DNA of 47,831 nucleotides. Source: Planctomycetaceae bacterium (lineage in GTDB: Bacteria > Planctomycetota > Planctomycetia > Pirellulales > Pirellulaceae). The position numbers were made by a program, and so were the translations under genes. This document shows, in pieces, positions 299 through 17,999 of this stretch; position 1 is the stretch's first letter; the number at the start of each line of letters is the position of its first letter. The stretch covers positions 1 to 47,831 of the forward strand of contig PBOG01000211.1 in assembly GCA_002724245.1 (NCBI GenBank), written 5' to 3'. The notes under the pieces are model-generated. The model made no database searches. It was given only the letters and a program-made list of their open reading frames with translations, and was not told where the DNA came from.

Positions 299-465
299 AT
301 AGCCAGGAAGCAGGAACGCACACGGGACGAGCGGACCCAGTGGCCAGCGGTCGACATCGATGTGTTACAGTAAGCACCCAATGTGCCGTGGCTGGCTTGC
401 ATCCGGAGTCGCCGGCAGCTCTGCACCACTTCTTTTGTTTTTTTGGCCACATTCGGAGACCAGCG

Positions 466-2847
466 ATGCCAAGCGAGAGTCAATCACCGCGTCAGGGGCC
501 TGTTACGGAGCGGCGGAGATTTCTGGACCCTCAGTTCTTTGACATCACCGAACGGGATTGTGCATTGTACGATCGCATCATCGGCAGCTTTGTCCCCCCG
601 GACGCCTTTGATGCGCACGGACACTGGTACGATCTGCGCCATCTGTTCGAAAGCTCTGCTGCGGATCCCCCGCTCGAGCAGCCGCGGGTGGGCTACCAGG
701 CGATGGTGGACAGTATGGGGCGTTGGATGGGGGAGCACCTGATTACCCGAGGGTTGTATTTTCCATTTCCCGCGCGCGACCTGGATTGCGAGTCCGCGAA
801 CGCGTTTTTGGCCGAGGAATTGGCTGCCCAGCCGGCGAGTCGTGGTCTGATGATGATCCGGCCTCAGGACGACCCAGACAAAGTTTTGGACGTCCGTCGG
901 CGATCGGGGTTTGCGGGATTCAAGGTCTACCATCTATTTGCCGAGCGGGCGGATACTCCGCAGGCCGAACAGGGTGAGTTTTTGCCAGAATGGGCCTGGG
1001 AAGCCGCGGATCGTGATGGTTTGTGGATCACCATGCACATGGTTTTGTCCCGTGCTTTGAGCGACCCTCGTAATGCGCAGTACATTCGCGACCATTGTCT
1101 CCGGTACCCAGGTGCCCGACTCGTGTTGGCACATGCAGCACGCGGTTTCAATGCGGCCGACACCGTGGATGCGATTGATGAAGTCCGCGGCCTGGACAAC
1201 GTGTTTTTCGATACCTCGGCGATCTGTGAACCTGCTGCGCTGGAAGCCATTTTGCGCACCACGGGGACCACGCGTCTGATGTATGGCAGCGATTTTCCGA
1301 TTTCCGAGACGCGGGGTAGGCCCGTATCGCTGGCCAATGGGTTCATGTGGATTTACTCGCATAACGTCACCTGGGAGGGTTGGGAGGAGGGGGGGCCTAA
1401 CCCGGTGGGACTTGAGGCGCTGCTTGCGCTGCGGCAGGCCTGTCGGACTTTGTCCCTGCGTGACAGGGACATCGAACGGATTTTCAGAGTCAATGCCGAG
1501 CAACTACTGGGCGTTCAGCCACCTCCAGACGGAGGGCAGGTGCAGCGTCAGTACCAACGGGCAAAAGAACTGATTCCGGGTGGTACGCAGCTGTTATCGA
1601 AACGACCTGAATTGTTTGCTCCCGGCCATTGGCCGGCGTATTACGAACAGGCGATTGGCTGCGAGGTCATCGACACGGCAGGCAGGCGGTTTGTCGACAT
1701 GACGTCCAACGGGATCCTCGCTTGCATTCTTGGATTTGCAGATCCGGATGTGAATGCGGCTGTGATACGTAGGGTGCATCTGGGGTCCATGGCCACCCAA
1801 CAGACCCACGATGAAGTGGAATTGGCCGCCAGGCTACTCGACATTCACCCCTGGGCGGACATGGCACGGTTTCCCCGGACCGGGGGAGAATCCATGGCGG
1901 TCGCCGTACGGATTGCCCGGGCCGCGACCGGACGCGACAAGGTGGCCATTTGCGGGTATCACGGTTGGCATGACTGGTACCTGGCCGCCAATCTGGGATC
2001 CGGAGTGGATCCGCTGGCAGGTCACCTGTTACCTGGCCTGGAACCGGCGGGAGTACCCACTGGTTTGCGAGGTACGACGTTGCCATTCGCCTACAACCAA
2101 CTCGACGAACTGGAGGCGATTGTGGCTTCGCATGGGGATGATCTGGCTGCCATCGTGATGGAGCCTACGCGGCAAATCGATCCACAACCCGGATTTCTGG
2201 AAGGGGTACGCGACATCGCGACGCGGTACGGGGCGTTACTGGTGTTTGATGAAATTTCGATTGGCTGGCGGCTGTGCCTGGGAGGGGCCCATCGGCTGTT
2301 TGGAGTGGATCCCGACCTGGCGGTGTTTGCCAAAACGATCAGTAACGGGTTCGCCATGGGGGCGGTGATAGGAACCGAACGGGCGATGGATGCGGCGCAG
2401 TCCACGTTCGTCTCCAGTGCGTACTGGACTGAAGCGATCGGTCCCGCCGCCGCGCTGGCGGCGGTGGGCAAGATGCAGCAACTCGATGTGCCGGCACACC
2501 TGGCGCGGATTGGGGGACAGATGTTATCCGGTTGGCAGGAACTGGGGAGTCGCCTGGGGGTTCCGGTGCGCACGGGGGGGCGGCCGGAAATGGTGGCCTT
2601 GGGCTTCGAGCACCCGCAAGAAGCCGCCTTGATGACATTGTTTACGACCCGCATGCTCGATCGAGGCTATCTTGCCGGTGGTGGTTTCAATCCGACGATG
2701 GCGCATCAGCCGCGGCACGTTTCCGGCTGTTTGGCCGCCGCGGCGGAGGTGTTTCCAGAGATGAGCGAGGCCATTGCTCGTGACGACGTCATGCAGCGCA
2801 TTGGCGGTCAGGTCAAGCATGCGACCTTTGCCCGTTTGACGGGGTGA
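466..2847 (+). CDS. fused amidohydrolase / class III aminotransferase
   Basis: The predicted 793-residue protein joins two enzyme domains. Residues about 30-350 look like an amidohydrolase_2 TIM barrel: an HxH metal motif at H51/H53, a later His at H223 in LAHAARG, and the C-terminal Asp D276 in YGSDFP. From about residue 357 it becomes a class III PLP aminotransferase of the glutamate-1-semialdehyde aminomutase type. It opens with the family-typical YQRAKELIPGGTQLLS, carries a YHGWHDWY segment, has a DE pair in LLVFDEIS, and the expected Schiff-base lysine is K623 in FAKTISNG. ATG 466 is chosen because GGAG at 455-458 precedes it and the upstream frame translates repeats. The substrate is unknown. 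A hydrolase and an aminotransferase or aminomutase acting in sequence on a small nitrogen compound is an inference. Both active sites look intact. Confidence 0.85.
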   Translation: MPSESQSPRQGPVTERRRFLDPQFFDITERDCALYDRIIGSFVPPDAFDAHGHWYDLRHLFESSAADPPLEQPRVGYQAMVDSMGRWMGEHLITRGLYFPFPARDLDCESANAFLAEELAAQPASRGLMMIRPQDDPDKVLDVRRRSGFAGFKVYHLFAERADTPQAEQGEFLPEWAWEAADRDGLWITMHMVLSRALSDPRNAQYIRDHCLRYPGARLVLAHAARGFNAADTVDAIDEVRGLDNVFFDTSAICEPAALEAILRTTGTTRLMYGSDFPISETRGRPVSLANGFMWIYSHNVTWEGWEEGGPNPVGLEALLALRQACRTLSLRDRDIERIFRVNAEQLLGVQPPPDGGQVQRQYQRAKELIPGGTQLLSKRPELFAPGHWPAYYEQAIGCEVIDTAGRRFVDMTSNGILACILGFADPDVNAAVIRRVHLGSMATQQTHDEVELAARLLDIHPWADMARFPRTGGESMAVAVRIARAATGRDKVAICGYHGWHDWYLAANLGSGVDPLAGHLLPGLEPAGVPTGLRGTTLPFAYNQLDELEAIVASHGDDLAAIVMEPTRQIDPQPGFLEGVRDIATRYGALLVFDEISIGWRLCLGGAHRLFGVDPDLAVFAKTISNGFAMGAVIGTERAMDAAQSTFVSSAYWTEAIGPAAALAAVGKMQQLDVPAHLARIGGQMLSGWQELGSRLGVPVRTGGRPEMVALGFEHPQEAALMTLFTTRMLDRGYLAGGGFNPTMAHQPRHVSGCLAAAAEVFPEMSEAIARDDVMQRIGGQVKHATFARLTG

Positions 2848-2904: not shown

Positions 2905-2911
2905 TGTGGCT

Positions 2912-5900
2912 ATGTTGAGAACACTTTCGATGATTTTCGTGTGCCTGGTCGTGGTCGGCTTGTCCGTGACGGCAGGGCTTTGCGACGAACCACCCAAGCA
3001 GGAGCGAATCCTTTTTGAACGGGATGTGTTTCCCCTGCTCAAGGCCCGCTGCGGAGTCTGCCATTTCGGTGATCAACCGAAAGGGGGCCTGGACCTGTCC
3101 CGACGGGCTACCATTGTCCGCGGTGGGCAGTCGGGCCCGGCGATTCGTATTGCCGCTGCGGAGACGAGCTTGCTCTTTGAGGTGTTGAGCAGCAACCGGA
3201 TGCCGTTGCGTGGGCCCCGCTTGACCGCGGAGGAGAAGGGGCTGATCCGCAGCTGGATCAATGAAGGCGCCGAGAGCGAGTCAAAGGACGTTGAGTCCGT
3301 CGATGAGGCGGAAGCGACGTATGCTGCCGCGGAATACAATTATTGGTCATTTCAACCGCCGCAACGCCCGGCCATCCCGATGGTTGCTACGCCACAGGAC
3401 GCTGAGGGGGCCATCGATCGTTTTCTGCTGCAGCGGTTGGCACAAGAGCAGCTGCATTACGCGCCCGCGGCATCCCGGACGACACTAATACGCCGACTTT
3501 ACATGGACCTGGTGGGATTGCCACCCAGTCCTGCCGCAGTCCGGCACTTTGTGACGGACAGGTCGCCGACGGCGTACGAGGAACTGGTCGATCGGGTGCT
3601 GGCCAGTCCGCAGTTTGGTGAACGCTGGTCACGGCATTGGCTGGATGTGGCGGGTTATTCTGACTCGGCGGGTGTGCTTTCTTCAGATGAAGAAAGGCAA
3701 TTGATCTGGCGTTACCGCGATTACGTGATTCGAGCGATGAACCGAGACGTTCCCTATGACACGTTTGTCCGTGAACAACTGGCAGGTGACGAGCTGTCGG
3801 GCTATTGGGAGGAGTACCACGCGGAGGAGCGGTTGTCGGAGAAGGTCGTCGAGGCGCTGGATGCCACAGGATTCCTACGCACCGGCCCCGACGCCAGCCG
3901 TCCGGACTTCAATACGATTAAAAATGTCAAAGGCCTCTATTATTACCCGACGATTGATGCGCAACTCAATATTCTCACTTCGGCGCTAATGGGAATCACG
4001 GTCAAGTGTGCCAAATGTCATAACCACAAGTTCGATCCCTTGACCCAGCGGGAATACTACCGACTGCAGTCGATCTTGATGTCGGCTTACAATCCAGACG
4101 AATGGGTTCCCTTTCGCCGCCGGAACCGGCCGATCGCCACCCGCAAACAGGTGGAGTTTGCTGAGCAGCGTGCTCAGGAAATTGAAACGCGTGTGGCTGC
4201 GTTAAAGCAGGAGCAGCAGGCGCTCCAGAAGGAACAGAGGGAGAAGCTCTATCAACAGCGTGTGACCGGAACACCGGAGGCGATGCGGGCCGACGTGCTG
4301 GCGGCGATCGCTACGGCACCCGAGCGTCGCAATGCGGTGCAAAAGTACCTGGCCGACAAGTTCGCAAGCTATTATCGTCCGCCGGAGGATCAACTAGACG
4401 CGGTGCTTTCAGGCGTGTTTGCCGATTACAAGAAGGCGGTGGCGACGAATGCTGAGGCGATTGCCGCAGAGCAGCGTCGTCGTGTGTACTTTGACTACAG
4501 CTACGCGACGTATGATGTACCCGGCACGCCGCACACGCCGCTGTTGCGGCGCGGCGATGCACAGACCCCTGGTCCCGTTGTTCAGCCAGGGGTTCCAGAG
4601 ATGATTCGTGCGCGGCTGCCGTTCTCGTGGCGTCCGCCAGCTGAAGGGGCGCACTCGTCTGGACGTCGTTCGGCGCTTGCCGAGTGGCTCACTCAGCCGC
4701 GGCATCCGCTCACAGCCCGGGTGATCGTGAATCGCCTGTGGCTGCACCATTTTGGTGAAGGGATTCTTTCCACGGTAGACGACTTTGGCTGGGCCGGGGA
4801 AGACCCGACGCACCGCACACTGTTGGATTGGTTGGCCGTCGAGCTGGAGGATGGTGGCTGGAGTCTGAAACGCTTGCATCGCAGCATGGTAACATCGGCG
4901 GCTTATCGACAACGCTCGTCGGACGGGCATCCCGATGCGGAGCGTGCGGAGCAGATCGACCCTCAGAACCGTCTGTTGTGGCGACAAAACTTGCGTCGAC
5001 TCGAGGCGGAACCATTACGAGACAGCATCCTCGCGGTCTCGGGTGGTTTGCTGACGAACATGTACGGGCGCCCGATTCCGGTGGCTGCTCGATCGGATGG
5101 GGAGGTGGTTGTCAACGACGGCAAGCTGCCGCAGCGGCGGTCGATCTATTTGCGCAATACGCGTTCCGCACCGTTGTCGATTTTGCAGCTTTTCGATCAG
5201 CCGGATATTGAGACGAATTGCGCGCGGCGCTCCCAGTCGACGGTTCCGCTGCAAGCGTTGTCGCTGATGAACAGCGATATTGTCAGCAATGCCGCGATTG
5301 GGTTTGCCAGTGTTGCGGTAGTGGAATCGCCAGAAGATCCGGTAGCATGGGCGTTCGAAGCGGCGCTCAGCCGGCAACCAGACACCACGGAACTGGCGAC
5401 ACTCAACGGGTTTGTTGCGCAACAGACGCAACACTGGCTGGCTCAAGCCGAGACGCAGCGTATCTGGGAATACGGTTATTGCGGCCCGGCCAGTGACGAA
5501 CAGACGTTGCTCACGTTTACCGCGTTTCCTCATTTCGGCGATCAGCAGTGGCAGCTTGGCAGGGATTATCCGTTTCAAGGTTCGTTCTGGGCAGGATTGC
5601 ACGCGACCGGCGGGCATCCTGGCGCGGGCAAACCCGTCGCACTTAAATGGACGGCGCCGGCGGCTGGCATCCTGCGGCTGAAAGGTCGCATTGAACACCC
5701 ATCACCGGGAGGTAATGGGATTCGCACCAGGTTCGCGACCCGTCGGCAAGGCGTGTTGCAGGAGTGGGGCGTAGCACATGGTGCGAAGGATGTGGTGAGC
5801 AAGCCGGTTTCCCTGCAGGCAGGGGAAGAGGTTCTACTGATCACGGACATGATGGGCGATTTAACATCGGATGGTTTTCACTGGGCGTTCGATCTGGAAT

Positions 5901-6064
5901 TGGTCGATGGGGAGCAACAGGTTGTCGGCCGCTGGAATTCACAGCGTGGGTTCCACGGGCCGGGGGCTGGGGCGGAGGGCGGACAGATGGCTGCCCGCAG
6001 GAAAGCGCTCGTCGATCTCTGTCACGTGTTGTTGTCCAGTCATGAGTTTTCGTATGTCGATTAA
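2912..6064 (+). CDS. PSCyt1/DUF1549/DUF1553 cytochrome-like exported protein
   Basis: The 1050-residue protein belongs to the planctomycete PSCyt1-DUF1549-DUF1553 family, whose function is not established. A Sec-type signal peptide covers about residues 1-24. A c-type haem motif CxxCH (C47, C50, H51) begins the PSCyt1 region. DUF1549 follows at about 160-400, with a second CxxCH (C366, C369, H370) and the typical HNHKFDP continuation. A charged, Gln/Glu-rich coiled-coil-like stretch at about 410-460 leads to DUF1553. Just before the family's usual C-terminal helix (ALVDLCHVLLSSHEFSYVD) an extra block of about 175 residues (about 850-1024), rich in Gly and aromatics, is inserted; the second copy of this family in the window lacks it. 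ATG 2912 gives the cleaner signal peptide; an in-frame GTG at 2906 is the alternative. It is followed 45 bases later by a DUF1501 gene, the usual partner. Confidence 0.9.
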   Translation: MLRTLSMIFVCLVVVGLSVTAGLCDEPPKQERILFERDVFPLLKARCGVCHFGDQPKGGLDLSRRATIVRGGQSGPAIRIAAAETSLLFEVLSSNRMPLRGPRLTAEEKGLIRSWINEGAESESKDVESVDEAEATYAAAEYNYWSFQPPQRPAIPMVATPQDAEGAIDRFLLQRLAQEQLHYAPAASRTTLIRRLYMDLVGLPPSPAAVRHFVTDRSPTAYEELVDRVLASPQFGERWSRHWLDVAGYSDSAGVLSSDEERQLIWRYRDYVIRAMNRDVPYDTFVREQLAGDELSGYWEEYHAEERLSEKVVEALDATGFLRTGPDASRPDFNTIKNVKGLYYYPTIDAQLNILTSALMGITVKCAKCHNHKFDPLTQREYYRLQSILMSAYNPDEWVPFRRRNRPIATRKQVEFAEQRAQEIETRVAALKQEQQALQKEQREKLYQQRVTGTPEAMRADVLAAIATAPERRNAVQKYLADKFASYYRPPEDQLDAVLSGVFADYKKAVATNAEAIAAEQRRRVYFDYSYATYDVPGTPHTPLLRRGDAQTPGPVVQPGVPEMIRARLPFSWRPPAEGAHSSGRRSALAEWLTQPRHPLTARVIVNRLWLHHFGEGILSTVDDFGWAGEDPTHRTLLDWLAVELEDGGWSLKRLHRSMVTSAAYRQRSSDGHPDAERAEQIDPQNRLLWRQNLRRLEAEPLRDSILAVSGGLLTNMYGRPIPVAARSDGEVVVNDGKLPQRRSIYLRNTRSAPLSILQLFDQPDIETNCARRSQSTVPLQALSLMNSDIVSNAAIGFASVAVVESPEDPVAWAFEAALSRQPDTTELATLNGFVAQQTQHWLAQAETQRIWEYGYCGPASDEQTLLTFTAFPHFGDQQWQLGRDYPFQGSFWAGLHATGGHPGAGKPVALKWTAPAAGILRLKGRIEHPSPGGNGIRTRFATRRQGVLQEWGVAHGAKDVVSKPVSLQAGEEVLLITDMMGDLTSDGFHWAFDLELVDGEQQVVGRWNSQRGFHGPGAGAEGGQMAARRKALVDLCHVLLSSHEFSYVD

Positions 6065-6109
6065 TGGTTGACCTGCGTGTTTACGAGTCACAGATCTGAG
6101 AGCAGAGCG

Positions 6110-7546
6110 ATGGAATACACATCTGCGGAACATTACCGGATCTCACGTCGACAGACCCTGCAACAAGTGGGCGCGGGTTTTGGCGGATTGGTGTTGGCAG
6201 ATCTCCTTAAATCTGAGGAGGCGGAGACGAGACGCATCCACAATTTGCTTCCTCAAACGCCCGCCCGCCTTCCTAAGGCGCGGGCCGTCATTCAATTGTT
6301 TATGCATGGTGGCCCCAGCCAGGTTGATCTACTGGATCCCAAGCCGCAATTGAATCGGTACGATGGTTCGACACCTCCGGCGGAAGTGCGGGATGATGAA
6401 CAGCGGACGAAGTATCTGCTGGGAACGCCCTTTAAATTCCACAAGAGCGGCGAAAGTGGTGTTGAATTTTCGGACCGCTTGCCCCACATCGCCCGGCATG
6501 CCGACCGGATCGCTGTGATTCGCTCGATGTTTACCGAGCATCGAAATCACGAACACGCGATCTGGATGGCGCAGACAGGCCTGATCGTACCCGGCCGACC
6601 GACGCTGGGAGCCTGGGCAGCCTACGGGCTCGGGACCGTGAACCAGAATCTGCCGGCGTACGTGGCGTTGCCTGATCCCCAGGGGCAATCGGTCGACGGG
6701 ATTCGCAACTGGTCCAGTGGGTGGCTGCCACCGATTTACCAGGGCACGGCGTTTCGTAGTCAGGGCACACCGGTACTGAACCTGAAGCCGCGGCAGGAGA
6801 AACCGGCTGCGGTCGAGGCCGGAAAACTCAATTTACTGCGGACGCTGAACGCCGGTCACAAGGAACGTCACTCAGGGGAACTGGAGCTGGATGCGCGCAT
6901 TACAAACCTGGAGCTGGCGGCCCGTATGCAATTGGCGGCGACCGATGCGATGGACATTACGCACGAATCGCTGGTGACACAGGAAGCGTATGGGCTCACA
7001 GAGGAGACCACCGCGTCGTATGGGCGGCGGTGTTTGATGGCACGCCGCCTGGTCGAACGCGGTGTCCGCTATGTGCAAATCATGATGAAGGGGCAACCCT
7101 GGGATACGCACCAAAGCAACGTAGCGAATACCACGAGTTGTTGTGCACAGACAGATCAACCCATCGGTGCGTTGTTGACGGATTTAGCGCAGCGGGGGCT
7201 GCTGGACAGCACTCTAGTGCTGTGGGGTGGGGAGTTTGGGCGGACGCCTGCTGCGGAGTTACGCGGAAAAGATGCGGGACGCGGAAACGAGGGACGCGAC
7301 CATCATCCCTACGGGTACAGTGTCTGGATGGCCGGTGGCGGGGTCCGGGGTGGGCAGACGTATGGTGAAACCGATGAATTTGGTTACCGCGCGGTCGTCA
7401 ATCGCACTAAAGTATCGGATTATCACGCCACAATCCTGCACTTGCTCGGATTGGATCACGAAGAGCTTGATTACCGCCACAATGGTCGCAGTGAGCGACT
7501 GACCGACGTCTATCGCGCACAAGTCATCCGCCAACTTGTCGGTTGA
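6110..7546 (+). CDS. DUF1501 family protein, Tat-exported
   Basis: The 478-residue protein matches the DUF1501 family, which is generally grouped with alkaline-phosphatase/sulfatase-like folds; its activity is not known. The N-terminus carries a twin-arginine signal (SRRQTLQQVGAGFGGLVLADLL). Family hallmarks visible in order are the FMHGGPSQVDLLDPKP segment, the HRNHEHAIWM region, the ERGVRYVQI segment with a downstream WDTH, and GGEFGRTP followed by GRDHHPYGYSVWMAGGGVRGG near the C-terminus. ATG 6110 is chosen over a TTG at 6068 because it places the RR motif at the usual distance. It lies 45 bases behind the PSCyt1/DUF1549/DUF1553 gene and is almost certainly co-transcribed with it. Confidence 0.9.
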   Translation: MEYTSAEHYRISRRQTLQQVGAGFGGLVLADLLKSEEAETRRIHNLLPQTPARLPKARAVIQLFMHGGPSQVDLLDPKPQLNRYDGSTPPAEVRDDEQRTKYLLGTPFKFHKSGESGVEFSDRLPHIARHADRIAVIRSMFTEHRNHEHAIWMAQTGLIVPGRPTLGAWAAYGLGTVNQNLPAYVALPDPQGQSVDGIRNWSSGWLPPIYQGTAFRSQGTPVLNLKPRQEKPAAVEAGKLNLLRTLNAGHKERHSGELELDARITNLELAARMQLAATDAMDITHESLVTQEAYGLTEETTASYGRRCLMARRLVERGVRYVQIMMKGQPWDTHQSNVANTTSCCAQTDQPIGALLTDLAQRGLLDSTLVLWGGEFGRTPAAELRGKDAGRGNEGRDHHPYGYSVWMAGGGVRGGQTYGETDEFGYRAVVNRTKVSDYHATILHLLGLDHEELDYRHNGRSERLTDVYRAQVIRQLVG

Positions 7547-7804
7547 ACGGGCCTCTGTCGCTGGCAGTAGTGTTGCTGTGAGACGCGGATCCGGCGTGGC
7601 AGATATCCGTACGGGTTGGGTGCTACTGGCGTCCGGAGGTGGCCTCCGCTGCCAATCCACAGATTCGCGGCGTGGTCCGTCGGCGTGGACTGATCAGGCA
7701 GTGTCCGAGATGGTATGATCGACTGTCGGGCCATCGAATTTGGCGATCGCGATCGTGCCACAGGTCCACTCGAGACGCAGGTCGCCGTACCCCTTAGCCA
7801 GAAT
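7547..7804. other. intergenic stretch with no supported gene
   Basis: These 258 bases between a DUF1501 gene and an MFS gene hold no recognisable coding sequence or terminator. A TATGAT at 7714-7719 could be a -10 element for the downstream gene but has no matching -35. The MFS reading frame stays open upstream to an ATG at 7715; that extension would add 30 polar residues in front of the first membrane helix and is considered less likely. Confidence 0.4.
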
Positions 7805-9193
7805 ATGCCCGCCAAGAATTCTCGCGCTCGTTATCCCACGCCTCGGCTTTGGTTGCGGTGTTTCAAGCCGTTTCTCTCGACGCTGCAGCGGATGCCTCCA
7901 AGTTGCCGTCCGGCACTCTTCTACGAGACGTTCTATAACATCGGGTCCGGGGCGTTTGTGGCATTGTTCGGTCTGGCGCTGGCCACGCTCAAGAGCGAGG
8001 TCTTCACACCAGGTGGGACGAAGGAACACTTGATGTTCGTGGCGGCCATGTTCGGTGGCAGCAGCTTGCTGAGTCCGCTCGTCGGTTACTGTGGCAAGAA
8101 TGTCTCCATGCGGCTGATGGTAATTGTCCCCAACCTAGTGGCAGCGGGGATCCTCTTTGCGACCTGCACGCTGCAGAACGCGGGATTTTTTGCGGCGATT
8201 ATCGGGGTGGCCTTTATCATCCGTGTTTTTCCGCGGGTGGCCGAAATGAACATGTTTCGCGTGCTTTATCCGGCGACCCATCGTGGTACGGCGGTGGGCT
8301 GGGTCAAGGCGGTCGCTGCGGTGTCCGGTCTGTGTGTGACTGTCGCCGCGACATTCTGGGTCATGTGGCGGCCAGCACTTTATTTCGTACCGTACTGGGC
8401 GGTCGGTATTGCGCTGGCTTGTTCCGCATTTGCCTATGCCAGGATTCCCGTGCGGCAACGTCTGTTGTTCCGGTCGGGTGAGGACCGGCCTCCGCACCGC
8501 GCCTTCTGGTCCGGTGCACGTGTTTTCCTCGCGGATCGGCGATTTGTGCTGTATCAGATTGGTTTCTTTTTTGCGGGTTTCGCCAATCACATGGCACATG
8601 CTTTTGTGGCGGAGTCACTTAAGGTGAATGCGTTGGCCTCGGATCGTGCAGTGTTCTGGATCGTGGCGGTCATACCGGCGCTTTGTATGGCGGGGTCCGC
8701 ACCCCTGTGGGGGCGTCTGCTGGACCGGATGAATCCGATGTCTGGCCGTGCGCTGTTCAATTCGATTCAATGCGTCGCCTACGGGTTTCACTGTTATGGA
8801 GGATTGACCCAGCAGGCCTGGCCGTTTTTGATCGGTTCGATTGTGCACGCCGTTGGGATGGGCGGCAGTACGATCAACTGGTTGACCGGAAGCCTCTATT
8901 TCGCCGATCGCGAACGCGTCACGTTGTACAACAGTATCCACGTGGCGTTGACCGGTCTGCGAGGGCTGTTAGCGCCGCTCGTAGGCGTGTTGATTTACGG
9001 CGGGACTGTCGTTCTTGGCCCCTGGGCGGTTCCAGGCCTGGGCCTTGGTCCCTGGCTATTCGGACTCTCTGCGGCGCTCTCCCTGTGTGGGTCGGTGTAT
9101 ATGGTATGGATGACCCGTTGGGACCAGGGGTCTTCTGAGGAAACCCGCCTGGAGAGGGGTGTGCCGCCAGGCGCTCAGGCTATTTCTTCTTGA
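7805..9193 (+). CDS. major facilitator superfamily transporter
   Basis: The 462-residue protein is almost entirely hydrophobic, with about twelve predicted membrane segments in two halves separated by a basic loop near residues 215-235 (RQRLLFRSGEDRPPHR). This is the layout of MFS carriers, and the length is normal. The second half carries a short cytoplasmic loop of the MFS kind (WGRLLDRMNP). The substrate cannot be told from sequence. ATG 7805 is chosen because it begins a short basic N-terminus before the first helix; an upstream in-frame ATG at 7715 exists and no strong ribosome-binding site distinguishes them. The next gene is a DUF1501 protein 136 bases downstream, so the transporter may import a product of that exported protein, but this is inference. 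Confidence 0.75.
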   Translation: MPAKNSRARYPTPRLWLRCFKPFLSTLQRMPPSCRPALFYETFYNIGSGAFVALFGLALATLKSEVFTPGGTKEHLMFVAAMFGGSSLLSPLVGYCGKNVSMRLMVIVPNLVAAGILFATCTLQNAGFFAAIIGVAFIIRVFPRVAEMNMFRVLYPATHRGTAVGWVKAVAAVSGLCVTVAATFWVMWRPALYFVPYWAVGIALACSAFAYARIPVRQRLLFRSGEDRPPHRAFWSGARVFLADRRFVLYQIGFFFAGFANHMAHAFVAESLKVNALASDRAVFWIVAVIPALCMAGSAPLWGRLLDRMNPMSGRALFNSIQCVAYGFHCYGGLTQQAWPFLIGSIVHAVGMGGSTINWLTGSLYFADRERVTLYNSIHVALTGLRGLLAPLVGVLIYGGTVVLGPWAVPGLGLGPWLFGLSAALSLCGSVYMVWMTRWDQGSSEETRLERGVPPGAQAISS

Positions 9194-9329
9194 TTCACCG
9201 GGATTATCTGGTCGATTTAGAGCGTATGGAAGACGCAAGGTGAGTCGGCCTGCCAAGTCAGGTTGACACACCAGTGCTTCCCAAAGGAAAATAGAACCGT
9301 TCAGAACACAGAATCCATGGAGATGTCCC

Positions 9330-10673
9330 ATGTTAACAATTACTGGCGGTCAAGCGGGGCGTGGTGCGTATTGTGATGGTGTTTCGCGCCGCAGTTTTTT
9401 GAAGATTGGGTCCTTGGGCGTGGGTGCCATGGGACTCAACCTCGCAGATCTGTTTCGAGGCGAGGCCTCCGGTGCGGTGACGCAAAAACACAAGTCGGTG
9501 ATTAACATTTTCCTGGGTGGTGGTCCCCCGCATCAGGATATGTGGGAGATCAAGACGGAAGCGCCTAAAGAGATCCGCGGACCTTTCCAGCCCATCGCTA
9601 CGAATGTTCCCGGAATCCAGATTGGTGAGTGTTTCCCGAAAATCGCGCAGATCATGGACAAGTCAGCTGTCTTGCGCGCCGTCGTCGGCTGCGAGGGTCG
9701 GCACGACTCGTTCCAATGCATGACCGGTTGGCGGCACGCCGATCTCCGCGCCATGGGAGGACGCCCGGCGATGGGCAGCGTGCTACACAAGCTGGAAGGT
9801 CCGGTCCACAAGAGCGTGCCTCCCTACGTCGGGATGGTTACCGCGGGCGTGTGGCGCGATCCAGGCAAACCTGGGTTTCTTGGGGCCAGCTATGCTCCCT
9901 TTAAACCGGAAGGACAGGGCCTGGCTGATATGAAGCTCAGCGGGATTTCGCTGGATCGCCTGGGTAACCGCAAAGCGCTGCTGACCAGTGTCGATCGCTT
10001 GCGTCGAGAAGCGGATTCGAGCGGCCAACTGCGAGCCCTGGACGCGTACGAACAGCAGGCCTTTGACGTGCTCGCTTCCAGCAAAATGGTCGACGCGCTT
10101 GACGTTTCAAAGGAAGATCCAGAAATTCGGGCCCGTTATGGTACGGGCAAACCGTATCAGTACCAGTATGACGGAGCCGCGACAAACAACGAACAGATTT
10201 TGATGGCGCGTCGGCTCGTGGAAGCGGGAGTTCGCTGTGTGACCCTGACCTACGGACGGTGGGACAGCCACGGAAATAATGAAGGCCTGGTGCGGCATCA
10301 CGGAGTTCGGATTGATCAGGCTGTGGCAGCCCTGGTCACCGACCTGGAAGAACGCGGGATGCTCGACGATGTGACGGTACTGGTGTGGGGTGAGTTTGGT
10401 CGAACACCGCGTATCAACAAGAGTGCGGGACGCGACCACTGGACGCAAGTCAGCTGTGCTTACATGGCCGGCGGTGGCATGCAGACCGGACAAGCGATTG
10501 GAAGTACCAATCGTCTTGGTGAACACGCCCATTCGCGACCTGTCCACGTTCAGGAGATCTTTGCGACCGTCTACAAGAACCTGGGCATCGATACTCGCAA
10601 TGCCACGATTGCAGATCCTGCTGGTCGTCCACAGTATCTGACTGAAAAAGAACCGATTGCCGAACTGGTGTAG
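9330..10673 (+). CDS. DUF1501 family protein, Tat-exported, unpaired
   Basis: The 447-residue protein is a shorter DUF1501 member. The start ATG 9330 is preceded by GGAGA at 9319-9323. A Tat signal is seen at about residues 19-42 (SRRSFLKIGSLGVGAMGLNL). Later hallmarks are FLGGGPPHQDMWEIK, the GVRCVTLTYGRWDSHG segment, and VWGEFGRTPRINKSAGRDHW. Unlike the other two DUF1501 genes in the window it has no PSCyt1/DUF1549/DUF1553 partner next to it; its neighbour is an MFS transporter. It ends 33 bases before the stem of a strong intrinsic terminator, which closes this plus-strand block. Confidence 0.9.
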   Translation: MLTITGGQAGRGAYCDGVSRRSFLKIGSLGVGAMGLNLADLFRGEASGAVTQKHKSVINIFLGGGPPHQDMWEIKTEAPKEIRGPFQPIATNVPGIQIGECFPKIAQIMDKSAVLRAVVGCEGRHDSFQCMTGWRHADLRAMGGRPAMGSVLHKLEGPVHKSVPPYVGMVTAGVWRDPGKPGFLGASYAPFKPEGQGLADMKLSGISLDRLGNRKALLTSVDRLRREADSSGQLRALDAYEQQAFDVLASSKMVDALDVSKEDPEIRARYGTGKPYQYQYDGAATNNEQILMARRLVEAGVRCVTLTYGRWDSHGNNEGLVRHHGVRIDQAVAALVTDLEERGMLDDVTVLVWGEFGRTPRINKSAGRDHWTQVSCAYMAGGGMQTGQAIGSTNRLGEHAHSRPVHVQEIFATVYKNLGIDTRNATIADPAGRPQYLTEKEPIAELV

Positions 10674-10763: not shown

Positions 10764-11543
10764 TCAGCACGACGGATCGGAGAACGGCTGCAGTGGTGAG
10801 AAGTCGCGTTCGTTCTGGTACCAGGGGCGTTCCGTTTTTGTGCAGGCATTGCTGACGGCATTGTAGATCAGGTAGGCAATGGCGCGGCGCCAGGGTGATA
10901 CGTTGTTCGCGGATCCGTGGACCAGGTTGCAATGGACGAAAGCCACTGAGCCAGCGGGGCCGATCAGAGGTTCGATTCCGTGCTCGCCCGCTAGTCGGAT
11001 CAGTGTCGGGTTATCAAGGTGGTGGAGCTCGTAGCCGCGCCCGTCAGCGTCCTCGTGCAAACGCGAGTCGAGTAATCCGTGGCGGTGTGATCCGGGAAGT
11101 ACCAGGAGCGGAGAGTTGACCGTCGTGCAGTCGTCGACGAAGACGGAAGCCATGACACAATGAGGCATCGGCATTCCGTCAATCGTGTGCCAGGGGGGAT
11201 AATCCTGATGCCAGGCCCAGGAGTCTCCGTGACCGAATCCGTATTTCGGATTGAGGCGGCTCTGGTGGAGATAGACGTCGTCGCGCAGTAGTTGCTGCAC
11301 AGGGTGAAGGAGTTGCGCACTGAGTGACAGCTTGCGGAACACGTCGTCGTAGTGATGCGCTCCGAACACGAGTCTCGCGGTGTCTGGCTGGTCCTTTTCT
11401 GGCACCACTTCCGGCCCCTTGCGACGCAGCAATTCTGGCAGGGTAGCTTGAAGCTCCTCGACCAGACCGGCCGGCAGCAACGAAGGCAGGAAGACGAAAC
11501 CTCGGTGCTCAAACTCCTGGAGTTGGCTTGATGTGAGTTGCAT
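10764..11543 (-). CDS. phytanoyl-CoA dioxygenase (PhyH) family, EctD-like
   Basis: A 259-residue non-haem Fe(II)/2-oxoglutarate-dependent dioxygenase. The iron-binding facial triad is visible as H112-x-D114 (WAWHQDYPPWH) with the distal H209 (HCNLVHGSANN), and a 2-oxoglutarate-binding Arg at R219 or R220 (SPWRRAIAYLIYN). The stretch after the HxD, with DGMP and LLVLPGSHRHG, and the C-terminal ERDFSPL resemble the ectoine hydroxylase-like branch of the PhyH family, but no ectoine synthesis genes are in view, so the substrate is open. It is the last gene of a three-gene minus-strand operon, 14 bases behind a Gfo/Idh dehydrogenase. AGGA about nine bases upstream supports the ATG at 11543. Confidence 0.85.
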   Translation of the reverse strand: MQLTSSQLQEFEHRGFVFLPSLLPAGLVEELQATLPELLRRKGPEVVPEKDQPDTARLVFGAHHYDDVFRKLSLSAQLLHPVQQLLRDDVYLHQSRLNPKYGFGHGDSWAWHQDYPPWHTIDGMPMPHCVMASVFVDDCTTVNSPLLVLPGSHRHGLLDSRLHEDADGRGYELHHLDNPTLIRLAGEHGIEPLIGPAGSVAFVHCNLVHGSANNVSPWRRAIAYLIYNAVSNACTKTERPWYQNERDFSPLQPFSDPSC

Positions 11544-11557
11544 CTCGGATGTTCCTG

Positions 11558-12634
11558 TTACGGTTGTTTGATCGAAATCGGACGGCCTTGGGAGGCCGAT
11601 TCTAGTACCGCCAGCGCCGTGGCCAGCGATCTGCTGGCATCATAGGCGTCACTCAAAGGCGTTTCCTGCTGTTGGATGACCTGGCAAAAATGTTCGAGTT
11701 GAAGGCTCAGCGGGTCTGCGGTTCTGGCGGTCCATTGGCGATGTGCCAGAGGGTGCTGCCAGCCCCGTGGACTGCCCTCAGGGTAGCTCCACGTGGTCAA
11801 CTGTGGAAAGGCAAGTGACCCTCGGACTCCGCAGAAGTGGTAGCAGTTTTCGGAGACGTGATCATAGGTGGGGTTTTCTCCTGTGGTGGCTTCGTACGAC
11901 CAGGGCGCGGGGGTGGTGTCGGAAGCGAAAATCGATCCGAGCGCGCCGTTTTCGAACCGGAGCGTGATGGACAGGGAGTCCTCTACCTCCAGCTGACGAG
12001 TGGCAGAACTGGTGTGGGCGAAAACTTCACTGATGTCACCGCACCAGTAACGCAGGCTGTCCAGATCATGTATCAAGTTAATGAGGGTGGGTCCGCCAGC
12101 CGGTGGAATGCATCGCCATGCTTGTTGGTAGTATTCGTCGGGTTTGCAGAGGGTCCAGAGGACGGAGACACCGACTAGCGGACCGACGGTGTCGCTTTGC
12201 AGGATTGCGTGGGCTTGCCGAACGAGTGGATTGTGGCGGCGGTGATGGCCGACCAGGACGGCGGTTTTTGTCGCGTCGCTGGCATCGATGATTTGGCGAG
12301 CGGCTTCGAGCGTGTCCGCAATCGGCTTTTCGATCAGCACCGGCACGCCTTGCTGAAGGCAGTGTACGGCCTCGCGGGCGTGTTCCGCGTTCGGTGTGGC
12401 AATGATTGCACCGTGTATCCGCTCGCGTTCCAGTAGTTCAGGTAGTGTGCGATAAAAGGAAACTCCAAAGTGATCTGCGACGGAGCAAGCCGTCGGGTTG
12501 ACATCGCAAATCGCGGCCAATGAGCAAGCTTTCTGTCCAGTGATGAGGGCGGCGTGCTGCCGTCCCATCTGACCGGCACCAATCACGGCCAGGGAGATAC
12601 GATCGGGTGCGTTGGTCATCCAGGCTGCTTTCAT
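11558..12634 (-). CDS. Gfo/Idh/MocA family NAD(P)-dependent oxidoreductase
   Basis: The 358-residue protein has the family's N-terminal Rossmann fold with the dinucleotide motif GAGQMGRQH near residues 19-27, then LIEKPIAD (the conserved EKP that positions the cofactor and substrate), and the C-terminal alpha/beta domain typical of sugar and inositol dehydrogenases (WRCIPPAGGPTLINLIHDLDSL with its HD pair). These enzymes oxidise or reduce hydroxyl groups on sugars and cyclitols using NAD(P). The start at 12634 is uncertain: an ATG five codons in (12619) is equally plausible and neither has a good ribosome-binding site. It lies between two PhyH dioxygenases with gaps of 20 and 14 bases, so all three probably act on one pathway. 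Confidence 0.88.
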   Translation of the reverse strand: MKAAWMTNAPDRISLAVIGAGQMGRQHAALITGQKACSLAAICDVNPTACSVADHFGVSFYRTLPELLERERIHGAIIATPNAEHAREAVHCLQQGVPVLIEKPIADTLEAARQIIDASDATKTAVLVGHHRRHNPLVRQAHAILQSDTVGPLVGVSVLWTLCKPDEYYQQAWRCIPPAGGPTLINLIHDLDSLRYWCGDISEVFAHTSSATRQLEVEDSLSITLRFENGALGSIFASDTTPAPWSYEATTGENPTYDHVSENCYHFCGVRGSLAFPQLTTWSYPEGSPRGWQHPLAHRQWTARTADPLSLQLEHFCQVIQQQETPLSDAYDASRSLATALAVLESASQGRPISIKQP

Positions 12635-12654
12635 CGAGGAGATTACGGGGCTAG

Positions 12655-13425
12655 TCAGGATGACGCATCACGGGGCTTGAGTCCGAAGCCCATGTGCTGG
12701 CGGTTGACTGAACTCTGGTGCCGTTCTTTGGCATCGGCGTCTACATGCGCGCTGACACCTCGATAGACCAGGGCAAAGGCCCGGCGCTGTCGTGTCGATG
12801 AATGGTTGGCATCTGCGAGGTGAATGGTTTCTCCGTGGTGCACGGCCAGGTCACCGGGGTGCAGAGTAACAGCGGATTCGCGGGCGGCATCATCAGGGCC
12901 ATAGTCCGTAATCCCCTGGGAGAACCCCAGCACCTGGGTTTCGGCATGGGATCGCAGACCCCGCTGATGGGACCCGGTAACGTACCGGAGACAGCCGTTC
13001 TCTTCGTCGGTGGGATCGAGCGCCAGCCAGGCGGTGATCACCTGTGGCGGGGAGAGCTTGAAGTAGAAGTTGTCCTGGTGGGGTGGAGTGGGGTGTTCGA
13101 CGCCAGGTGGTTTGTTGAACCACTCGGGGCCCATAGATACGGCCGGTTCACCGAGCAAGCCGGCCGCCATTGCCAGCCACTCGTCCTGCAACGGGTAGTC
13201 GGTAAGAAAAGGAGCCCGCTGGAAGTGCTGCATTTGTTTTAGCGTTTCGGGGCGTGCGCGGTCGTGGTAGAACGCGCTGCTGTCTGGTAATCCGGGCACT
13301 ACTTCGCGGATGTAACGTTCGAGAGCATCCGTGAGTTCCCGGAGGCCGGTCGGCGACAAGAATTGGCGCAGGACCACAAAGCCGTCTCGGTTCAGCGTCT
13401 GGCGAGATTCTTCGTAAACGTTCAT
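12655..13425 (-). CDS. phytanoyl-CoA dioxygenase (PhyH) family protein
   Basis: A 256-residue Fe(II)/2-oxoglutarate dioxygenase. The HxD iron ligands are H116 and D118 (PPHQDNFYF), the distal His is most likely H202 (HHGETIHLADANHSS), and R215 in RQRRAF is the expected 2-oxoglutarate anchor. The segment ITAWLALDPTDEENGCLRYVTGSH is characteristic of the family. ATG 13425 is preferred to an upstream in-frame start at 13482 because the protein then opens with the usual YEESRQTLNRDGFVVL. It is the first gene of a minus-strand operon with a Gfo/Idh dehydrogenase and a second PhyH protein. The two PhyH proteins differ clearly, so they are not a recent duplication. Confidence 0.85.
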   Translation of the reverse strand: MNVYEESRQTLNRDGFVVLRQFLSPTGLRELTDALERYIREVVPGLPDSSAFYHDRARPETLKQMQHFQRAPFLTDYPLQDEWLAMAAGLLGEPAVSMGPEWFNKPPGVEHPTPPHQDNFYFKLSPPQVITAWLALDPTDEENGCLRYVTGSHQRGLRSHAETQVLGFSQGITDYGPDDAARESAVTLHPGDLAVHHGETIHLADANHSSTRQRRAFALVYRGVSAHVDADAKERHQSSVNRQHMGFGLKPRDASS

Positions 13426-13581
13426 GCGCAGGTGCCTGGGAAAAGGTTGGCAGGCGAGAGTTTCAATCGTCTTGAACGCCAACTCGCCGGGAAAAGTACT
13501 CTACGACACGGGCGGTGTCGGGCTCAAGCGGACACGTGGGGAATTCTGGTTCAGGCAGGAAGTCTGTTGGTGTTGTGGCAA

Positions 13582-15768: not shown

Positions 15769-17727
15769 TTAACTGGAGAAATAGGTGTCGCCGCTGAGAC
15801 TCTGCTGGTAGGTGGCGACCATCTTTGTCGCCTGCTGGCTGTTCAGCTTGCCCTCTTGAACCGCGGAAGCGGCGAGATCCCGAACGCGGTCAACGAGGTG
15901 GGAAGGGTCGTAGGCAACATAGCCCAGCACCTCGGCGAGAGAATCGCCACGACAGTGTGTGAGTGAATGGCCGTTTCCGGCGAGTTGTATACTGATCACA
16001 TTGGTGTCACCCAGCAGGTTGTGCAGGTCTCCCAGCGTCTCCTGGTACGCACCTACCAGGAATACACCTAGGTGATAGGGAGTCGTGGAGTCGATGGTGT
16101 GTAGGGGCAAGCAGGGACGGCGTTGTCCATTTACAACGAATTCATCCAGTCTTCCATCACAATCACAGGTGATGTCTGCCACGATGGCGTTTTGTGTAGG
16201 CCTTTCATTGAGGCGATGAATGGGCATCATGGGAAACCACTGGTCGATTGCCCAGCTGTCGGGGAGGGATTGGAAGATGCTGAAATTGCCGTAATAGACA
16301 TCGTGACCGTCGGGAAGCGACTCCAATCCTTCCGGGACGTGGCTGAGGCCCTTCAGGCGACGTTGCAGGCGAGACAAGATCCCACGAAAAAGGTAATCCG
16401 CATGAGCCCGCTCCCGGAGGGAAATGCGGCCGTGATTGAATAGTGCGAGAAGCTCGCTGCGGTAATAGACGGCGTCGTTGTAACACTCCTGCATGTTGTG
16501 ATCGTTCAATCGTGCTTCGACTGCGTGCAGGCTCTTGAGAAAGTTATGCGACGGCGCGTTGACGGTCTGAGGAGAGGTGGGGCCATGGAAGCGGTTGACT
16601 TCCAGGACATTGAATATCAGGGCCGAGTAATATGCGGTTAACGCACGACCGGACTCGCTGACAATGTCAGGATGTGCCTGTCCGGTCTCGGCACAGACGG
16701 TGCTGATTGCCTCGACGACGTCAAAGGCGTATTCCAAGGTGCCGTAGTTGCGGCTACTTGTGCTGTTGGTCTGTGACCCATCGTAGTCGACAGCCAGCCC
16801 GCCACCGATGTCCAATAAGCCCATTGCCGCACCCTCACGCGCCAGTTCCACGTAGATGCGTGATGCTTCCATGGCCGCATCGCGGATCGCTCGAATGTCC
16901 GGGATCTGCGATCCCTGGTGGTAGTGGAGCATGCGGAGTGACGAAAGGTTGCCGGTGGAACGGAGCGTCTCTACGACCCGTAAAATCTGTTCCGCGCTGA
17001 GGCCGAATACACTGCCGTCCCCACTGGATCGTGACCATTGCCCTTCGTGCCGGGTAGCGAGTTTAGCACGCACACCAAGAGCCGGAGTCACGCCCAGACG
17101 CGCCGCTCGATCGAGAATCAGCTCCAGCTCGCCGGGCATCTCCAACACCAGGATAACTTGCAAACCCAGTTGCTGGGCGCTAAGTGCGAGGTCGACAAAC
17201 TGGCAGTCCTTGTAGCCGTTGCAGACGAGTAAGGCTTCCGGGTCACGCAGGTACGCCAGGGCCGCCAACAGCTCAGGTTTGCTGCCGACTTCCAGTCCGA
17301 AATGATAGCGTTTTCCACAGCGGGTTACCTCTTCGAGAACCTGACGCTGTTGATTGACTTTGATGGGGTAGACGCCGCGGTAGCAACCTTGGTAGTCGCA
17401 CCGCTGCATCGCGTTGTGGAAGGACTGGTTGAGTCGGTCCAGTCGCGCAGCCAGCAGATCGGGGAAGCGGAGCAGGAGTGGGGTGTTCAGGCCTCGGCGT
17501 TGGGCTTCGTCCACAATGCCAGGAAGGCCCAGTGAAATACGTTGGCCCTCGCGATCCAGATAGACTTCCGCTTCGCCGCGGGGGGAGATACCGAAGAACC
17601 CATTCGACCAGCTGTCGACACCGTAGGCTGCCAGGGAGTCGACGATGGTCCAGTCTGGAGAGCCGGTCGACAACCGGGGCTCGATTGTTGGGCGAACGTC
17701 GCGGAGATGGGGGGGGCGGAGGTCCAT
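15769..17727 (-). CDS. speA: biosynthetic arginine decarboxylase SpeA
   Basis: The 652-residue length fits the SpeA class of fold-III PLP decarboxylases, which convert arginine to agmatine and CO2 for polyamine synthesis. The cofactor lysine is K123 in YPIKVNQQ. Further hallmarks are LEVGSKPELLAAL, the cofactor-phosphate region LLDIGGGLAVDYDGSQ, VSESGRALTAYYSAL, and near the end LFLVGAYQE-like FLVGAYQETLGDLHNLLGD. ATG 17727 begins the segment that matches the family; the frame is open upstream to 17841 but that part is low-complexity. It is divergent from a nitrilase-family gene 272 bases away that could act later in agmatine breakdown. No agmatine deiminase or spermidine synthase is in the window. 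Confidence 0.95.
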   Translation of the reverse strand: MDLRPPHLRDVRPTIEPRLSTGSPDWTIVDSLAAYGVDSWSNGFFGISPRGEAEVYLDREGQRISLGLPGIVDEAQRRGLNTPLLLRFPDLLAARLDRLNQSFHNAMQRCDYQGCYRGVYPIKVNQQRQVLEEVTRCGKRYHFGLEVGSKPELLAALAYLRDPEALLVCNGYKDCQFVDLALSAQQLGLQVILVLEMPGELELILDRAARLGVTPALGVRAKLATRHEGQWSRSSGDGSVFGLSAEQILRVVETLRSTGNLSSLRMLHYHQGSQIPDIRAIRDAAMEASRIYVELAREGAAMGLLDIGGGLAVDYDGSQTNSTSSRNYGTLEYAFDVVEAISTVCAETGQAHPDIVSESGRALTAYYSALIFNVLEVNRFHGPTSPQTVNAPSHNFLKSLHAVEARLNDHNMQECYNDAVYYRSELLALFNHGRISLRERAHADYLFRGILSRLQRRLKGLSHVPEGLESLPDGHDVYYGNFSIFQSLPDSWAIDQWFPMMPIHRLNERPTQNAIVADITCDCDGRLDEFVVNGQRRPCLPLHTIDSTTPYHLGVFLVGAYQETLGDLHNLLGDTNVISIQLAGNGHSLTHCRGDSLAEVLGYVAYDPSHLVDRVRDLAASAVQEGKLNSQQATKMVATYQQSLSGDTYFSS

Positions 17728-17953
17728 GCTGGACAGGCGTGTTGGGGCGGGAGGACTGCGGGCAGGCAGCGACCGGTGCAGGGTCTTACCCGCGAAGCCT
17801 GACCAGAATGCGAATACAACAGAGAATCGCAGCCAAGTCAACCCGAACTGGTTGGGCCCGCGTGGAGGGTGGTCCCCCCACTGGCTGACGACGGTCGACG
17901 GACCCTCTATGCTGGCGATAGGGTTTCAGGTTGCTGAGGGGATCGAGCGGCGT

Positions 17954-17980
17954 TTGCCTCATATCGAGTTTGGGTATTGT
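17954..17980 (+). promoter_or_regulatory. weak candidate promoter for the nitrilase-family gene
   Basis: TTGCCT at 17954-17959 and TATTGT at 17975-17980 are separated by 15 bases in the speA/nitrilase divergent gap. The spacer is short and the match partial. The -10 hexamer is the same as in the candidate upstream of the YgiQ-like gene. Confidence 0.22.
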
Positions 17981-17999
17981 TTTTCCATAAGGTGAGCTT

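Follow-up and report, generated by a model that had tools for sequence, protein, structure and literature searches.

A widespread fusion of an amidohydrolase and a class III aminotransferase in Planctomycetota and other phyla, with a possible role in the breakdown of acidic amino sugars

The fused gene and its two domains

The stretch of DNA considered here (the window) comprises 47,831 nucleotides of contig PBOG01000211.1 from a Planctomycetaceae bacterium (assembly GCA_002724245.1), and the object of our analysis is the gene at positions 466 to 2847 of its forward strand, which encodes an amidohydrolase joined to a class III aminotransferase. The gene (793 codons plus the stop) lies at the left end of its contig (C180; the genome amounts to 7.79 Mb in 287 contigs) and is supported by its translation, by Pfam, by 58 fused loci in total, and by an AlphaFold2 model of the whole protein (mean predicted local distance difference test [pLDDT] score, 88.2; predicted template modeling [pTM] score, 0.86). 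The reading frame stays open 5' of position 466, up to position 217, with a candidate TTG start at 244; nevertheless, since a likely ribosome-binding site read from the sequence (GGAG, positions 455 to 458, forward strand) precedes the ATG at 466 by 7 bases, the latter appears to be the better start.

The N-terminal domain (positions 586 to 1515, forward strand; residues 41 to 350, approximately) is a predicted triosephosphate isomerase (TIM) barrel of the Amidohydro_2 family, delimited by Pfam, the secondary structure of the model, fold matches, and conservation. In particular, Pfam recognized Amidohydro_2 (PF04909) at residues 49 to 349 (E value, 6.6e-13; 49.5 bits against a cutoff of 26.4). 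The predicted metal site matches the Amidohydro_2 pattern, namely, HxH, His, His, and Asp on barrel strands 1, 5, 6, and 8, through H51, H53, H191, H223, and D276. H51 and H53, on strand 1, are kept in 57 of the 58 fused loci, the remaining row being gapped there, and K153, H191, H223, and D276 are kept in all 58 rows of the alignment. Both in the whole-protein model and in that of the N-terminal domain alone, the metal-site residues sit at the barrel strand ends, with K153 on strand 4, H191 at the end of strand 5, H223 after strand 6, and D276 at the strand 8 position; K153 presumably occupies the place where some amidohydrolases bear a carboxylated lysine between two metals. The sequence-only reading of this DNA had listed H51, H53, H223, and D276 as the metal site, and each of these residues was borne out, but the list lacked H191 and K153.

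Since the aminotransferase filled the fold list of the whole model, the N-terminal domain was also folded alone. Its best fold matches were tied: a COG3618 amidohydrolase (4do7/4dlf; Z, 21.3; root mean square deviation [rmsd], 3.3 over 247 residues; 17% identity), which we take to be the L-fucono-1,5-lactonase of Burkholderia multivorans, then 3cjp (Z, 20.9) and IDCase (Z, 20.6). Up to about 3 Z units below the best match were 2-pyrone-4,6-dicarboxylate hydrolase, 5-carboxyvanillate decarboxylase, and ACMSD. The sequence resemblance to 4do7/4dlf is very weak (E value, 0.0019 over 26 positions), and an NCBIfam search with four amidohydrolase domains returned no family, the general Amidohydro_2 model of Pfam being the sole match.

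A variable linker (positions 1516 to 1533, forward strand; residues 351 to 356, approximately), which in the alignment of the 58 rows is longer in some species, leads to the C-terminal domain (positions 1534 to 2844, forward strand; residues 357 to 793), assigned to the class III aminotransferases by Pfam, matches to solved structures, fold matches, and conservation. Pfam Aminotran_3 (PF00202) covers residues 390 to 735 (E value, 3.3e-35; 122 bits against a cutoff of 30.5), so that, in agreement with the earlier reading, each of the two domains exceeds its curated cutoff within a single frame. K623, proposed there as the pyridoxal 5'-phosphate (PLP) lysine, is invariant in 40 of 40 alignment rows, and further aminotransferase features are D595 and the YHGWHDWY motif at residues 498 to 505. 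The closest folds are FumI (6hbv; Z, 40.2) and then glutamate-1-semialdehyde (GSA) aminomutase (2hp1; Z, 38.9), and most of the closest matches by sequence in the PDB are GSA aminomutases.

The label of a GSA aminomutase-like domain, given by the sequence-only reading, holds for the fold only. On the HemL profile (TIGR00713) the fused protein scored 179.1 bits (181 bits at the locus), against an equivalog cutoff of 527.3 bits, and a separate HemL gene of the same genome (on contig C153) scored 610.1 bits; furthermore, 44 positions are conserved at more than 90% in both 57 fused and 23 single aminotransferase rows (the latter chosen out of 73) and differ from the genome's own HemL. An identity with the heme pathway enzyme was rejected on these grounds. 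By the same conservation rule, one position alone separates fused from single rows. Judging from such comparisons, the C-terminal domain belongs to the class III aminotransferase subfamily of nonulosonate clusters, and, because 44 positions are shared and only one distinguishes them, fused and single aminotransferases probably handle similar substrates. In three other loci (L009, L040, and L157), an aminotransferase of the subfamily is fused to an SpsF-like cytidylyltransferase, a family judged from sequence.

Authenticity and distribution of the fusion

Full-length fused matches were found in 7 of 60 genomes of relatives (own genome included) and in 18 of 392 genomes of the phylum (own genome and a divergent protein of genome G331 included). 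In a scan of named genomes, 80 loci were kept out of 584 candidates, and the fusion occurred in 34 of them. Overall, there are 58 distinct fused loci whose proteins are all nonidentical, three of which (L103, L117, and L130) are cut at contig ends. According to the tree labels, they span nine phyla: Planctomycetota, Verrucomicrobiota, Lentisphaerota, Bacteroidota, Spirochaetota, Armatimonadota, Hydrogenedentota, Acidobacteriota, and Bacillota. Many of the genomes are metagenome assemblies; the fusion is also carried by strains with species names, such as Membranihabitans marinus DP5N28-2 and CZ-AZ5 and Chitinophaga alhagiae T22.

Two circumstances could have suggested that a frame error or a chimeric assembly had joined two neighboring genes, that is, the position of the gene at a contig end and the occurrence, in relatives, of the halves as separate adjacent genes. 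However, the same fusion recurs in 58 loci, including those of Membranihabitans and Chitinophaga and of single-contig genomes (e.g., G021, G042, and G348), and a genome of the same genus (G002) encodes a protein 90% identical over residues 3 to 793, so that the chance of an artifact is negligible and an error of frame or assembly was ruled out. When the two same-genus genes are compared, the changed codons are 116 synonymous and 39 nonsynonymous in the amidohydrolase half and 149 and 33, respectively, in the aminotransferase half, and purifying selection acts on both. The protein is an authentic, conserved, and widespread two-domain enzyme. The earlier reading was right in considering that its two domains are genuine and that each has an intact active site; the catalytic residues are kept over the fused loci. 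A frame error or a lack of profile support, which it had named as grounds for refutation (the former in combination with separate genes in close relatives), was not found. Separate neighboring genes do exist, but they accompany a fusion that is widespread and conserved and therefore speak for a functional pairing rather than for an error.

Evolution of the pairing

The divergence of the two domains is correlated (Mantel r of 0.88 over 54 rows, with 0 of 2,000 permutations as high); this test left out L044 and three truncated rows, and the addition of L044 lowered r to 0.82. In the tree of the N-terminal domain, which, like the 130-row tree of the C-terminal domain, holds 57 of the 58 fused rows after the dropping of short ones, all but one of these 57 are placed in a single group (bootstrap, 94; SH-aLRT, 90). 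The exception is the fused protein of G331 (contig C209; L044 and L080), which groups with another amidohydrolase lineage and whose N-terminal domain is 26% identical. Since this domain falls in a different lineage, G331 represents a second, independent fusion of the aminotransferase to an amidohydrolase.

The two halves are encoded by separate, adjacent genes in L093, L133, and L158 and by genes on opposite strands in L126, and more diverged planctomycete pairs, with the halves near each other, occur, for example, in L047, L048, and L049. Because the halves are also neighbors as separate genes, and because a second amidohydrolase lineage has been fused to the same aminotransferase, the pairing looks functional rather than accidental. 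In the 130-row tree, the single relatives L118 (as L008) and L119 fall among the fused rows; both of these aminotransferases neighbor an ordinary Amidohydro_2 gene and HpcH/HpaI or DHDPS genes. L118 is on the same contig as L008/L081, and L100, L104, and L120 belong to one genome.

Genomic context of fused and single loci

The neighborhoods of 46 fused and 42 single loci were compared, after the exclusion of short-contig loci and of the split pairs L093, L133, and L158; L107, truncated by the end of its contig and possibly a fused gene, was counted as single. The neighbor families of single-locus representatives were confirmed by Pfam. Genes of nonulosonate biosynthesis clusters distinguish the single loci: NeuB was found near 15 of 42 single loci, CTP_transf_3 near 24, and DegT near 16, whereas each of the three was found near 0 of 46 fused loci; Polysacc_synt_2 was nearby in 14 of the 42 single loci. 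Since NeuB is near none of the fused loci and the own genome gave no NeuB match, a role of the fused protein in nonulosonate biosynthesis was discarded.

In contrast, BNR_2-type or c1-cluster neighbors occur in 15 of 46 fused versus 2 of 42 single loci, SSF or MFS transporters in 11 versus 2, and PhyH in 6 versus 0. The BNR-type, transporter, and aldolase neighbors of fused loci are found chiefly outside the relatives of the window's organism. The clearest rows are those of two Chitinophagaceae (L106 and L114), where a transporter, an HpcH/HpaI aldolase, an aldo-keto reductase, Gfo/Idh, and SDR surround the fused gene (the L106 genes and the L114 transporter were assigned by Pfam, and the remaining L114 genes by clustering). 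Altogether, the context of fused loci looks catabolic.

Fused and unfused versions stand side by side in L070 (minus strand): 5' of the fused gene, and all in its orientation, are SDR, an unfused Amidohydro_2 gene, another class III aminotransferase, a gene resembling D-serine dehydratase, and a transporter of the SSF type.

As regards the window, three tandem repeat arrays lie just 5' of the fused gene, at positions 35 to 81, 126 to 188, and 257 to 298, with periods of 13, 18, and 21 bases and 3.6, 3.5, and 2.0 copies, respectively. Positions 2906 to 10673 hold, immediately 3' of the fused gene, one PSCyt1/PSCyt2/PSD1 and one DUF1501 gene, which are followed by an MFS transporter and a further gene of the DUF1501 cluster (assigned by clustering), in an order that is kept in the same-genus genome. 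On the minus strand, PhyH, Gfo/Idh, and PhyH follow in a row (positions 10764 to 13482), two families that are also represented around some of the fused genes of other genomes. Finally, at positions 15769 to 18878, an arginine decarboxylase gene adjoins a gene for a carbon-nitrogen hydrolase, which lies on the other strand; the pair may belong to a polyamine route.

Proposed function and alternative explanations

We tentatively propose, with a little less than even confidence, that the fused protein is a bifunctional catabolic enzyme that hydrolyzes and deaminates an acidic amino sugar. The substrate, the reaction, and the order of the steps are what we infer from the lines of evidence described above; in particular, a nonulosonate-type amino sugar is suggested by the relatives of the aminotransferase and by neighbors in other genomes, not by this window. 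In the N-terminal amidohydrolase, a divalent metal held by H51, H53, H191 or H223, D276, and perhaps K153 would activate a water molecule for the cleavage of an amide or lactone, the substrate being an acidic or amino sugar. The C-terminal domain, in which K623 would form the aldimine with PLP, would then act as an aminotransferase and remove the amino group of the product, and the resulting keto sugar acid could be passed to aldolases, for example, those of the HpcH/HpaI or DHDPS type. The role would be one of catabolism or salvage rather than of heme or nonulosonate synthesis. The halves most likely act together, and their joining would keep the two activities in a fixed stoichiometry and may allow a reactive intermediate to be handed on. 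The sequence-only reading had suggested the opening of an amide or lactone followed by the moving of an amino group, which is plausible, although deamination seems likelier than an internal move.

It is also possible to hypothesize, albeit with low probability, that the enzyme is the breakdown counterpart of the nonulosonate-cluster aminotransferase, in which case the hydrolase would free an N-acyl- or lactone-bound amino group of a sialic-acid-like sugar and the aminotransferase would remove it. If so, Planctomycetota, Verrucomicrobiota, Bacteroidota, Spirochaetota, and others could feed on amino nonulosonates from microbial surfaces, and the same subfamily would make a sugar in some bacteria and unmake it in others with nearly the same active site.

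Several observations weigh against the proposal of a catabolic hydrolase-deaminase. The profile search for a close solved relative of the N-terminal domain found none, giving only partial matches (best E value, 2.4e-7), and for this reason amide, lactone, and decarboxylase chemistry cannot be distinguished; comparison of folds does not separate a lactonase from a decarboxylase either. The window's own neighbors (PSCyt/PSD1, DUF1501, MFS, PhyH, and Gfo/Idh genes) reveal no substrate. As to the context counts, the stored flanks are longer for fused loci (17.4 kb versus 13.3 kb on average), which favors the fused counts, and several families that would suit catabolism are unenriched, namely, HpcH/HpaI (7 of 46 fused versus 3 of 42 single loci), SDR (10 versus 9), Gfo/Idh (9 versus 15), and aldo-keto reductases (5 versus 9). 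Moreover, c1 and SSF neighbors, found in 4 of 17 fused loci of the phylum genome set in the case of c1, also occur in 4 and 6, respectively, of 12 planctomycete split-lineage loci, which were counted apart; consequently, they do not characterize the fusion itself. The context argument is weakened by this planctomycete control and by the unenriched neighbors. It should be considered that the 29 fused loci from named genomes include some Planctomycetota as well (e.g., L086, L087, L097, and L102).

A BNR- or sialidase-like context was likewise discarded as functional proof: such genes are not in the window and are scarce in the phylum loci (a BNR_2-type neighbor in 0 of 17 fused loci, one being placed in L075 by looser clustering), and BNR_2 matches number 45 in the own genome. 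None of the 16 c1 members scanned reached a Pfam cutoff (14 gave no family, and 2 gave weak matches below the cutoff), the search for a solved relative of two c1 members found none, and one c4 member matched sialidases weakly and an uncharacterized solved protein strongly. In addition, the trees of the C-terminal domain spread the fused rows over more than one group, the starred branches forcing at least 4 changes in the quick tree of 130 rows and at least 5 in a careful tree (67 of the 130 rows, with L107 left out), so that fission, loss, or re-pairing has taken place as well.

A single pathway would also be at work if the protein took part in a route for sugar lactones or sugar acids that has no relation to nonulosonates; the N-terminal domain would then be a lactonase akin to L-fucono-1,5-lactonase, and the aminotransferase would act on a downstream keto acid or aldehyde. 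This explanation, which we consider rather unlikely but the strongest of the alternatives, draws on 4do7/4dlf (COG3618) among the tied best fold matches and on the HpcH/HpaI, SDR, Gfo/Idh, aldo-keto reductase, and 3HCDH neighbors, which suit oxidative sugar-acid routes; on the other hand, the Z scores of decarboxylases and hydratases come to within about 3 units of the top fold match, the lactonase could be encoded by the additional Amidohydro_2 gene present in the fused locus L070 and in the split pair L158, and the aminotransferase subfamily occurs in sugar clusters. The proximity of those same decarboxylases could instead indicate that the N-terminal domain is a metal-dependent nonoxidative decarboxylase or hydratase (ACMSD or LigJ type), the enzyme then decarboxylating or hydrating its substrate and transaminating it. 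ACMSD, 5-carboxyvanillate decarboxylase, IDCase, and LigJ are indeed among the fold matches (Z, 18.2 to 20.6), and the HxH, H, H, D set is that of ACMSD-type enzymes. However, the strand 4 lysine K153, which presumably lies outside the ACMSD metal site, is invariant in 58 of 58 loci, the COG3618 matches are slightly better, and no neighbor identified suggests aromatic acids; we therefore hold such chemistry to be improbable.

The C-terminal domain could, for its part, be an internal aminomutase like HemL rather than a deaminating aminotransferase, as the prevalence of GSA aminomutases among the best sequence matches to solved structures would suggest. Nevertheless, the FEAVF motif of HemL partly aligns to a gap and its SPAR motif is replaced by SKRPE, both motifs providing substrate contacts of the mutase, and the deaminating FumI is slightly closer in fold, all of which makes an aminomutase very improbable.

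The significance of the protein resides in the joining of two known kinds of enzyme across nine phyla, with a recurrence both as neighboring genes and as a separate fusion. Because of this span and recurrence, the pairing may serve as a Rosetta-stone clue to an unassigned pathway, in which the aminotransferase should use the product of the hydrolase. It would also offer a handle on the true role of the class III aminotransferase of nonulosonate clusters, named after the heme pathway aminomutase in the cluster reported in PMC3694923, and the strains under species names (M. marinus and C. alhagiae) make the function testable. The fusion was not found described in the literature searched (for the fusion itself and for nonulosonate contexts and breakdown), which lay mostly outside subscription journals, so that its absence from the literature is unproven.

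Comparison with known systems

With the COG3618 amidohydrolase of B. multivorans (4do7 and 4dlf), presumably the L-fucono-1,5-lactonase (PMC13406643 cites an enzyme of this name from this host and COG), the N-terminal domain has the barrel fold in common, but that enzyme stands alone, whereas here the barrel is fused to an aminotransferase. The fold is also common to ACMSD-type decarboxylases and hydratases, without the function being implied. On the side of the C-terminal domain, HemL is likewise a class III PLP enzyme, although the domain scores far below the HemL cutoff. Closer are the aminotransferases of nonulosonate clusters, which, in the genomes covered, are members of the same subfamily on sequence grounds but, unlike the fused protein, are single domain or fused to an SpsF-like protein and often lie in biosynthesis clusters. 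A cluster of this kind is that of Legionella pneumophila serogroup 6, where, according to PMC3694923, a gene annotated as glutamate-1-semialdehyde 2,1-aminomutase accompanies PseG, a cytidylyltransferase, DegT, CapD, and NeuB; its gene makeup resembles that of the single-aminotransferase loci, a likeness drawn from gene annotation.

The best fold match of the C-terminal domain, FumI (rmsd, 2.2 over 392 residues; 23% identity), is an aminopentol aminotransferase that acts after the carboxylesterase FumD and deaminates hydrolyzed fumonisin B1, as reported in PMC2933618 and PMC4810229. FumD and FumI follow the same logic of a hydrolase and then a deamination, but as separate proteins, with a carboxylesterase in place of the amidohydrolase and a mycotoxin as the substrate. 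By analogy, the FumD/FumI system may be regarded as a precedent, in two proteins, for the hydrolysis and subsequent deamination that we propose for the two domains of the fused enzyme.

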